Source: Tepidiformaceae bacterium
Lineage (GTDB): Bacteria > Chloroflexota > Dehalococcoidia > Tepidiformales > Tepidiformaceae
Assembly: GCA_958295975.1 (NCBI GenBank)
Contig: OY282446.1
Coordinates: forward strand, 1,465,289-1,529,288
Length of the DNA: 64,000 nt
Direction: 5' to 3'
Positions 7,789 through 35,074 of this stretch are shown piece by piece. Position 1 is the stretch's first letter; every line of letters begins with the position of its first letter. Both the position numbers and the translations under genes were made by a program. Under the pieces are notes generated by a model. That model made no database searches. It had not been told where the DNA came from and worked only from the letters and a program-made list of their open reading frames with translations.

Positions 7789-8307
7789 ATGAGCGACGAG
7801 ACCGCGCCCCTCCTGCGCCTCGCGCGCGACGACGAACTGCCCGAACCGCTGCGCGCGCGCACGGATGCCGTGACGCGCGTGTTCGGGCACAACGCCCGCC
7901 TGCTGCGGGCGTGGAACGAGTGGTACCGCCCCCTCATCCGCGACGGGGCCGTGTCCGCGCGCCTCAAGGAGCTGGTGCGGCTGCGCGTGGCGCAGCTCAA
8001 CGCCTGCGAGTTCTGACAGGCCGCGCGGCTTCCCCTGTCAGGGGAAGGAGAGACGCTGGAGGAGGCCACCGTCGCCAAAATCGCGCGCTGGGGCGACGCG
8101 GACTTCACCGAGGCCGAGAAGGCCGCCTTCCACTACGCCGAGCGGCTGGTCGTGGACCACGCCAACATCGACGGGGCGCTGTTCGACGAGCTGCGCCGCT
8201 TCTACACGGAGGAGCAGATCGTGGAGCTGGGCTGGGCCGTCGTCAGCTACCTGGGCTTCGGGCGGCTGATCCATTCGTTCGGGCTGAAGCCGGAGGGGAC
8301 GCTGTGA
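7789..8307 (+). CDS. Carboxymuconolactone decarboxylase/AhpD-like selenoprotein (CxxU, in-frame UGA at 8014-8016)
   Basis: A conventional reading stops after 75 codons at NACEF-UGA. The same frame continues for 96 more sense codons (QAARLPL...) to a TGA at 8305, giving a 172-residue protein of normal CMD/AhpD size. The UGA (codon 76) stands precisely at the second Cys of the family CxxC redox motif: Cys73-Glu-Phe-[76], followed by QAAR as in C-x-x-C-x-x-x-R. A 7-bp hairpin with a UGUCA loop starts 12 nt downstream, inside the coding sequence, as bacterial SECIS elements do. I infer selenocysteine insertion and a thiol/selenol peroxidase-type or redox role. The stop overlaps the GTG of the esterase gene. 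A nonsense mutation is the alternative but would not explain position plus hairpin. Confidence 0.85.
8029..8047 (+). promoter_or_regulatory. Candidate bacterial SECIS hairpin
   Basis: CTTCCCC (8029-8035) pairs perfectly with GGGGAAG (8041-8047) around the 5-nt loop UGUCA, whose second base is G. The loop begins 19 nt after the UGA at 8014-8016, within the spacing and loop rules known for bacterial SECIS elements (short apical loop with a G in its first two bases). It lies within the coding frame of the CMD gene. Confidence 0.75.
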
Positions 8308-31133: not shown

Positions 31134-31351
31134 GGGGCCTCCGTGCTTCCGCGCGGGAAGCGGACGGCCCAGGCGAGCGGCCATGCGTTGGATTCGTCCG
31201 GGCTCCCCCGCGGTGCTCCGCGTGCGCCAGTCGCCCGAACGGGGACAGGATAGCACGGACAAAGGCGTCGAACGCAACGCCGCCCGCGAGCGTGGACAAT
31301 GTGCGACGATCACGGGGCGTTCACATGCAACCGGAAGGGTGGGCGACGGAG

Positions 31352-32059
31352 ATGACCGCGGCCCCCGCCACCACGGCAACCATCCTCATCATCGAGGACG
31401 AGGAAGCGCTGCTCCTCGCCATGGCCCACCACCTGCGCCGCGAGGGCTACGGGGTGCTCACGGCGGCGCGCGGGGACGACGGCCTGCGGCTGGCGCGCGA
31501 ACGCGAACCCGACGCCATCGTGCTGGACCTGATGCTGCCGGGCGTGGACGGCATGGGCGTCTGCCGCGCGCTGCGCCGCGATTCGCGCGTGCCCATCATC
31601 ATGGTCACCGCGCTGGGCGGCGAGGGGGACCGCATCGTCGGGCTGGACGCCGGCGCGGACGACTACCTGCCCAAGCCCTTCGGCATGCGCGAGCTGCTGG
31701 CCCGCGTGCGCGCGCTGTTGCGGCGCGCCCCCGCGCGCACGGCGGAACCGCCCGCGGAGGACATGCTGCGCTCCGGCGATCTGGAGGTGAACGCGGCGCG
31801 GCGCGAGGTGCGGCGCGGCGGCGCGCTGGTGCGCATGAAGCCCCGCGAGTTCGAGCTGCTGCTATTCTTGCTGCGAAACCCCGGCCAGGTGCTCTCCCGC
31901 GAGCACATCCTGGAGTCGGTCTGGGAGCATGATTTCCACGGTGACGCGCGAACGGTCGACGTGCACGTGCGCTGGCTGCGCCAGAAAATCGAGGCGAACG
32001 CGGCCAGCCCCGAGCGCATCCGCACGGTGCGCGGGAGCGGCTACCTCTTCGAGGGCTAG
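31352..32059 (+). CDS. OmpR/PhoB-type response regulator
   Basis: 235 residues. Receiver domain: acidic pocket IEDEE, phosphoacceptor Asp59 in VLDLMLPGVDG, conserved Thr/Ser (MVTALGG) and Lys in DDYLPKPFG. C-terminal winged-helix DNA-binding domain ends RTVRGSGYLF. I chose ATG 31352 because GGAAGGG precedes it; ATG 31325 and 31292 are upstream alternatives. Its stop is 9 nt before the sensor kinase. Confidence 0.92.
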   Translation: MTAAPATTATILIIEDEEALLLAMAHHLRREGYGVLTAARGDDGLRLAREREPDAIVLDLMLPGVDGMGVCRALRRDSRVPIIMVTALGGEGDRIVGLDAGADDYLPKPFGMRELLARVRALLRRAPARTAEPPAEDMLRSGDLEVNAARREVRRGGALVRMKPREFELLLFLLRNPGQVLSREHILESVWEHDFHGDARTVDVHVRWLRQKIEANAASPERIRTVRGSGYLFEG

Positions 32060-33609: not shown

Positions 33610-34182
33610 CTAGCCGCCGCCCGCGGCCTCCGTCTCCGCCTGCGCCGTCCCGTGCGTGACGAGGTGGCGCATGTCCGCGGGCACGTCGGGCAGGCCCACG
33701 ATGAAGAGGCCCTCCGAAACGGGCGGGGGCACGTCGAAGACGTTGTTGAACTTGTGCACCGAGTCCCAGATGCCGATGCCGATGGTCAGCTCGACGACCT
33801 GCTCCTCGCTGAAGTGCTCCCGGAGGCGGTCCATGAAGGCGTCGTCCACGTTGTTGGCGTGGTTGAGGATGAAGTCCTCGGCCAGCTCGAGGGCGACCTT
33901 CGTGCGCTCGGGGAGATCGGAGTTCCGGAAATCAAGCGCCTGCTTGATCATCTCCTCGTCCATGCCTTCCTGCTGCGCCGCAGCAGAGCGGGCCGGGATT
34001 CAGTAACGGCAGCCGTTGGTGTTCGAGGAGTAGAGCCGGATGAGCTCCTTGAGCACCGGGTCGAGGGTGCTGTGGGACCACAGCAGGCCATAGTTGAACA
34101 TGAAGCCCTTGAAGAGGTCGGGGCGGTGCATGTACACCCCGCCGAACCCCTCCATGCCTCCGACTTCGCTGACGCGCGGCAT
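33610..34182 (-). CDS. Carboxymuconolactone decarboxylase/AhpD-like selenoprotein (CxxU, in-frame UGA at 34002-34000)
   Basis: Conventional reading gives two pieces: MPRVSEVGGMEG ... SSNTNGCRY-UGA and MDEEMIKQALDF to the end. They are in one frame with IPARSAAAQQEG between them, giving 190 residues, the usual CMD length. The UGA is codon 61, three after Cys58 (C-R-Y-[UGA]-I-P-A-R), matching the CxxCxxxR redox motif with selenocysteine as second residue. A 7-bp hairpin CUGCUGC-GGC-GCAGCAG begins 13 nt after the UGA. ATG 34182 has AAGGAG 6 nt upstream. A later domain carries LREHFSEEQVVELT, a CMD-family signature helix. Probably a selenol-dependent peroxidase/reductase-like redox protein. Confidence 0.85.
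33970..33986 (-). promoter_or_regulatory. Candidate bacterial SECIS hairpin
   Basis: On the minus strand CTGCTGC (33986-33980) and GCAGCAG (33976-33970) pair perfectly around the triloop GGC. The loop begins 20 nt after the UGA, almost the same spacing as in the other CMD gene, and its first base is G. Confidence 0.75.
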
Positions 34183-34276
34183 CGCCTGCTCCTTCGGCCC
34201 GCGCCTCTGGCCGGGCCTTCGCGTATCCTGCGCAGTATAGCGCCATCCGCGACGCGCGGGGGCGCGGGGAGATGCG

Positions 34277-35074
34277 ATGAAGCTGCTCGAGGGAAAAAAG
34301 GCGATCGTGCTGGGCGCGTCCAGCGGCATCGGCTGGGCCATCGCCGAGCGCTTCGCCGAGCACGGCGCGGACGTGATCGTGGCCGCACGCCGCGTCGGGA
34401 ACCTGGAGCGGCTGGCGGACGCCATCGGCGGCACGGCCATGCGCTGCGACGGGCGCGATCACGACGACCTGAAGGCGCTGGCGGACGCGGCCCTCGCCAA
34501 ATGGGGCACGCTCGACGTGGCGGTCAACTCGGCGGGCGTGGTGCGCGGGGCGCTCATCCGCGACATCACGCCCGAAGACCTGCGCGCCGTCGCCGACATC
34601 CAGTACTTCGGCTTCATCTACTTCATGAAGCACATGGGGAACGCGCTGGCGGCGAGCGGGGGCGGCTCGCTCATCAACATCACCTCGACCACCGCCATCT
34701 CCGTGCCGACCGGGCTGACGCCCTATTCGGCGGCCAAGGCGGCCATCAACTTCGCCACCAAGATCGCGGCGCGCGAGTACGGCCCCGACCAGGTGCGCGT
34801 GAACGCCGTGGCCCCCACCTTCGTGCCCACGGCCATGAACAACTACGGCGGGGGCACGCCCATCGACGACGCGCGCGTCGAGCTGGCGCCCGACAACCCC
34901 ACGGCGCAGGGCTTCATCGAGCAGACGCCGCTGGGCCGCGTCACCACCGTGGACGACTGCGCCGACGTGACGCTGGCGGTGGCCAGCGACCTCTTCGGCG
35001 ACATCACCGGGCAGGTCATCCCCGTGGACGGGGGCAACCACCTGCTGCGCCTGCCGGAGACGCGGCGGCGGTGA
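34277..35074 (+). CDS. Short-chain dehydrogenase/reductase
   Basis: 265 residues. NAD(P) motif GASSGIGWAIAERF at residues ~13-26, NSAG, catalytic Ser in TSTTAISVPTGL and YSAAK (Tyr-x3-Lys), and a C-terminal SxxITGQVIPVDGG-type end (FGDITGQVIPVDGG). ATG follows GGGGAG. It overlaps the next gene (GTGA), and faces away from the CMD selenoprotein gene, with a possible shared intergenic promoter region. Substrate unknown. Confidence 0.9.
   Translation: MKLLEGKKAIVLGASSGIGWAIAERFAEHGADVIVAARRVGNLERLADAIGGTAMRCDGRDHDDLKALADAALAKWGTLDVAVNSAGVVRGALIRDITPEDLRAVADIQYFGFIYFMKHMGNALAASGGGSLINITSTTAISVPTGLTPYSAAKAAINFATKIAAREYGPDQVRVNAVAPTFVPTAMNNYGGGTPIDDARVELAPDNPTAQGFIEQTPLGRVTTVDDCADVTLAVASDLFGDITGQVIPVDGGNHLLRLPETRRR

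Follow-up and report, generated by a model that had tools for sequence, protein, structure and literature searches.

A gene for a 190-residue protein of the CMD/AhpD-like superfamily, on the minus strand of a Tepidiformaceae (Chloroflexota) genome, is almost certainly a genuine selenoprotein gene whose single internal UGA, codon 61, would be read as selenocysteine (Sec). The gene lies at 33610..34182 of the contiguous 64,000-nucleotide stretch of DNA that was analysed, referred to here as the window. The case rests on conservation of the UGA codon among orthologues from two phyla and on covariation in a hairpin that follows it within the coding sequence.

Structure of the gene and its hairpin

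When TGA is translated as U, the frame runs from the ATG at 34182 to a stop codon at 33612-33610 and contains one in-frame UGA, which forms the motif C58-R-Y-U61 in the context NTNGCRYUIPARSAAAQQ. A first-pass annotation of the window had described CRYU-IPAR in frame with a 190-residue CMD protein, an AAGGAG upstream of the start (34194-34189), and a 7-bp hairpin with its loop 20 nt after the UGA; each of these was recovered, and the strand, which had not been given, is minus. The plus-strand reading of the same interval was discarded, as its frame is unrelated to the selenoprotein. Coordinates of the features are collected in Table 1.

Table 1. Features of the selenoprotein locus, in window coordinates
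Feature	Position	Strand	Basis
CMD/AhpD-like selenoprotein gene, 190 aa, U61	33610..34182	-	TGA=U translation; Pfam CMD; TIGR00778; orthologue frames open through UGA
UGA, predicted selenocysteine 61, last position of CxxU	34000..34002	-	TGA in 40/40 orthologues at >=54% identity; aligned with Cys51 of PA0269 and Cys133 of M. tuberculosis AhpD
Hairpin of bacterial SECIS type; stem of 7-8 bp, apical loop GGC at 33979-33977	33969..33987	-	Covariation in 6/8 pairs, 0/500 shuffles; published bSECIS model (PMC13188914)
Ribosome-binding site AAGGAG, 6 nt 5' of ATG	34189..34194	-	Sequence; AAGGAG-type sites also 5' of same-genus orthologues
Cys58 codon, partner of U61 in CxxU	34009..34011	-	Invariant in 36 aligned homologues
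Glu46 codon, equivalent to relay Glu36 (PA0269) and Glu118 (M. tuberculosis AhpD)	34045..34047	-	Alignment and residue roles in PMC3141380; Glu/Asp in close homologues
Arg65 codon, in place of relay His55/His137	33988..33990	-	Arg in 36/36 homologues, Cys and Asp forms included
Divergent intergenic region, 94 bp, between the selenoprotein gene and a short-chain dehydrogenase gene (34277-35074, +)	34183..34276		ORF list; same arrangement in UBA2991 locus L056

The stem-loop found by the window stem scan, CUGCUGC-GGC-GCAGCAG at 33986-33970, extends to 8 bp with an outer U-G pair, has a folding energy of -16.7 kcal/mol, and fits the published bSECIS model (PMC13188914). Its thermodynamic significance was nonetheless rejected as evidence, because the folding z-score against shuffles is -0.95, no better than shuffled sequence, and because a qualifying stem of at least 7 bp follows 10.7% of the 1329 TGA triplets in the window (at least 8 bp, 4.6%). 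A single hairpin is thus not significant in a window of 70% GC, and the claim must rest on orthologue conservation and covariation. An Rfam search of the window returned no SECIS match, and a covariance model built on the SECIS of this gene misses the other SECIS elements of the genome; the model is therefore family-specific and gives no count of the selenoproteome.

Conservation of the UGA codon and covariation of the hairpin

A protein search for homologues covered 196 relatives and 84,980 genomes of named species, and orthologues were defined by at least 54% identity and a readable UGA position. Forty orthologues were retrieved, most of them from metagenome-assembled genomes; since the searches overlap and some genes occur twice, it is safer to count the 26 distinct sequences. 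They include sequences from all eight same-genus genomes, from three further genera of the family, and from Gammaproteobacteria (Halieaceae, Pseudomonadales and others), including one from a named strain, Candidatus Litorirhabdus singularis IMCC14734. TGA occupies the Sec codon in 40 of the 40 (26 distinct sequences, spanning Dehalococcoidia and Gammaproteobacteria), and all complete frames stay open past it to a normal stop.

The hairpin is conserved with the codon. The GGC loop is found in all 40 orthologues (26/26 distinct sequences), and in an alignment of 29 distinct homologous elements the paired cells make up 95.7%, with changes on both sides in six of the eight stem pairs. The covariation score is 0.349, compared with 0.135 +/- 0.019 for shuffled alignments (0/500 reached it); sliding the partners gives no more than 0.085. 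In one compensatory pair, a GCT to TCT change (Ala to Ser) accompanies a CAG to AAG change (Gln to Lys). That some compensations alter amino acids is as expected if RNA pairing rules, and the SECIS within the coding sequence is thus demonstrated by covariation, at the cost of amino-acid changes.

These data bear on three other ways of reading the UGA. It could close a 60-residue upstream peptide, with a separate 117-residue protein translated from an internal ATG at 33963; such an ORF (33963-33610) does exist, with AGGAAGG closely 5' of its ATG, and it is the one that automatic annotation would be expected to report. That arrangement is highly improbable, as the internal ATG varies among orthologues (L066 and L072 have TTA there), Cys58 and U61 fall within one AhpD domain match that spans the UGA, and the position of the hairpin is fixed relative to the UGA and not to the internal ATG. 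A nonsense mutation in a decaying pseudogene, for which nothing speaks except the usual role of UGA as a stop, has a negligible chance of being correct given that 40 orthologues from two phyla share this UGA and have no further stop or frameshift, that the hairpin covaries, and that pN is far below pS on the 3' side of the UGA as well as on the 5' side. Judged from these sequences, every orthologue has kept the region downstream of the UGA whole and under purifying selection, the opposite of the decay that the first-pass annotation had named as a refutation. Equally negligible is a change of genetic code in this lineage, with UGA standing for Trp or Gly as it does in codes 4 and 25, which would account for readthrough in this gene: TGA serves as a true stop in several orthologues and same-genus paralogues (L064, L065, L066, L048-L050), the internal UGA occurs only at the catalytic Cys position, where the aligned residue is Cys rather than Trp or Gly, and tRNA-Sec, SelA, SelB and SelD are present.

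The first-pass annotation had proposed looking for Cys orthologues in close relatives. None at 54% identity or more was found among the 196 relatives and the 84,980 named species genomes; the nearest Cys homologue, at 47-49% identity, is L038 of genome G012, which has CKMC and no hairpin. It groups with a Sec form, L037 of genome G010 (support 93/88). The pair presents a natural Sec-to-Cys change together with loss of the hairpin, and the genome of L038 retains SelA. A second family of Sec-containing CMD proteins (L043-L051), with CDFU or CMFU, 38-45% identity to the protein described here and the same GGC-loop hairpin, occurs in all eight other same-genus genomes as well as in G018; the homologue search did not find it in the window's own genome.

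Selenocysteine machinery and other selenoproteins

Absence of the Sec machinery, the other refutation that had been named, is not the case. The genome, a single contig of 2.4 Mb, contains selA, selB, selC and selD (SelA, E 1.8e-128; SelB, 288 bits; SelD, 346.8 bits; tRNA-Sec, 69.6 bits). SelA is likewise present in 12/12 Dehalococcoidia genomes, this one included, that carry a UGA orthologue at 54% identity or more, as against 130 of the 196 relatives overall, and in all 12 of the gammaproteobacterial genomes holding the UGA gene that were tested. The core reading of a Sec-containing CMD/AhpD-like protein is thereby supported.

At least six UGA genes, a lower bound on the selenoprotein count, were found in the genome, and they encode CMD, SelD and SelW-like proteins. 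An in-frame UGA stands at the CxxU position in four of the genome's six CMD domains, and the SelD gene itself carries a UGA (CGGU). The six selenoprotein hairpins all obey the rules for loop G and spacing. Selenium use had been proposed to be directed at AhpD-like redox proteins, which holds for four of the at least six genes and leaves out SelD and the SelW-like protein, whose genes also carry an in-frame UGA. The SelW-like (Rdx) selenoprotein (L092, G000:C1:1290205-1290420) has the motif YCVPU and a SECIS-like hairpin, and another Rdx gene (L093) encodes the Cys version, CxxC.

The window holds one other selenoprotein gene, on the plus strand, with a UGA at 8014 (CEFU) and a hairpin in the region 8014-8064 whose stem has 8 bp and whose loop, GUC, starts 20 nt after the UGA. 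The two genes share the CMD superfamily, the CxxU motif, and a hairpin with a 3-nt loop and 20-nt spacing. The near-identical spacing reported in the first-pass annotation stands as common geometry, with 20 nt in place of the 19 given for the gene at 8014. Comparison of the hairpins, which had also been suggested, shows geometry to be shared but sequence to be unrelated, as the hairpin at 8014 scores 7.5 bits with the SECIS model of the gene at 33610..34182, which is background. The gene at 8014 is a distant paralogue. As paralogues of one superfamily, the two genes, which the first-pass annotation had taken as independent, are not fully independent evidence; significance comes from conservation and covariation among orthologues.

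Tandem CMD pairs were also observed, in G000 (C1:1655153-1655386, L004, and 1655695-1655934, L002) and in G039 (L039/L052), with similar pairs in same-genus genomes. One partner has CxxU; in the other the Sec position is taken by an acidic residue, giving CEAE in G000 and CAYD in G039. The pairs are possibly hetero-oligomers with one inactive subunit.

Family, fold and predicted active site

The protein passes the thresholds of Pfam CMD (PF02627; E 3.5e-11, 43.4 bits against a gathering threshold of 23) and of the AhpD core domain (TIGR00778; 37.3 bits against a cut-off of 27.8), and does not reach the curated cut-off of the peroxidase-related enzyme model TIGR01926 (43.7 bits against 81.8). 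The best full-length curated match, shared by all 36 homologues, is NF053654 (GroundWater_YciW; E 8.1e-17), a YciW-related (seleno)protein model that represents a related yet different family, as the score is 61.5 bits against a curated cut-off of 310. The AlphaFold model is all-helical (mean pLDDT 90.7), and its best solved fold match is PA0269 (TM 0.85). PA0269 (2o4d/2ijc) and Atu0492 (2gmy) are the top matches (sequence E 5.8e-10) and resemble the selenoprotein in fold (TM <=0.85), in the position of CxxC, and in the relay Glu and Tyr.

The roles of relay residues in PA0269 and M. tuberculosis AhpD have been described, and His55 is stated to be invariant in AhpD-like proteins (PMC3141380). 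On this map Glu46 corresponds to Glu36/118, Cys58 to Cys48/130, Tyr60 to Tyr50/His132 and U61 to Cys51/133, such that the CxxC redox pair is present as CxxU, with Sec replacing the second Cys. Where PA0269 and Atu0492 carry a second Cys and, four residues after it, the relay His, the selenoprotein has Sec and an Arg, Arg65, that is found in 36/36 homologues.

By analogy with established bacterial Sec insertion, SelB and Sec-tRNA-Sec would bind the GGC-loop hairpin and Sec would be inserted at UGA61. Sec61, in the place of Cys133 of AhpD and Cys51 of PA0269, could then attack as selenolate a hydroperoxide or other oxidised substrate; the resolving residue would be Cys58, by way of a selenenylsulfide that is then re-reduced by a thiol donor of the cell. 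Glu46 would be retained as the relay acid, and Arg65, in lieu of the relay His, may stabilise the selenolate. The selenoprotein would thus be a selenolate-based peroxidase or thiol oxidoreductase, probably a thiol peroxidase that works on its own or else a peroxidase adaptor. A function of the peroxidase type is reasonably likely, the chemistry being uncertain because the invariant AhpD relay His is missing.

The same replacement of His by an invariant Arg could point to a genuine selenoprotein that is no peroxidase, in which the AhpD fold supports a thiol/disulfide or reductive dehalogenase-type enzyme and Arg65 serves another chemistry. The debrominase Bmp8 (6ohi) is among both the fold and the sequence matches, by which a role in reductive dehalogenation is possible, and in other genomes the adjacent genes vary, with no peroxidase operon among them. 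This alternative is unlikely, although it deserves some weight, since the best matches are the peroxidase-type AhpD proteins PA0269 and Atu0492, and Glu46, Cys58, Tyr60 and position 61 fit the peroxidase relay. The gene stands alone, divergent within the genus from the short-chain dehydrogenase gene, and comparison of the neighbourhoods of homologues found no operon partner conserved beyond the genus. With conservation limited in this way, gene neighbourhood was dropped as a clue to the substrate.

Relation to known selenoproteins and a probable transfer between phyla

CMD domain-containing and AhpD-like selenoproteins with CxxU have been known since 2005, when they were reported from the Sargasso Sea (PMC1088965). 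AhpD-like 1 and 2 selenoproteins were described from the GOS data in 2008 (PMC2398784), and CMD/AhpD-like selenoproteins are listed in a 2026 review (PMC13188914). The marine metagenome proteins have in common with the present one PF02627, CxxU and a SECIS-type hairpin with an apical-loop G. What sets the clade described here apart is that its members belong to named genomes of Dehalococcoidia and Gammaproteobacteria, and that the searches found no Cys orthologue at 54% identity or more. A literature search found nothing specific on selenoproteins of Dehalococcoidia, SAR202 or Halieaceae. The protein meets no curated full-length selenoprotein model and arguably represents a new subfamily of the known CMD/AhpD-like CxxU selenoproteins. 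Because gene callers halt at UGA, it would be split, and probably mis-annotated, in genomes of Chloroflexota and marine Gammaproteobacteria.

In a midpoint-rooted tree, the gammaproteobacterial sequences form one clade (99/98), which falls beside the target genus within the Dehalococcoidia branches (91/86, moderate support for the nesting). The topology is most simply explained by a single inter-phylum transfer of the UGA gene with its SECIS, probably in the direction from Chloroflexota. A tentative scenario, plausible though short of probable, is that an apparently Sec-only AhpD-like family, with Arg for the relay His and a selenolate that makes the relay dispensable, originated in Dehalococcoidia and was transferred a single time, SECIS included, to marine Gammaproteobacteria, where it would depend on the Sec machinery of the recipients. 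The family thus offers a UGA-dependent gene in two phyla, alongside a relative in which Sec has changed to Cys and the hairpin has been lost.

Elsewhere in the window, a ZMP/ZTP riboswitch (RF01750, 55.8 bits) was found at 31160-31244 on the minus strand, just 5' of a minus-strand purH-like gene. The riboswitch falls within the ORF listed for that gene (29571-31379), placing the true start of the purH-like gene further downstream.
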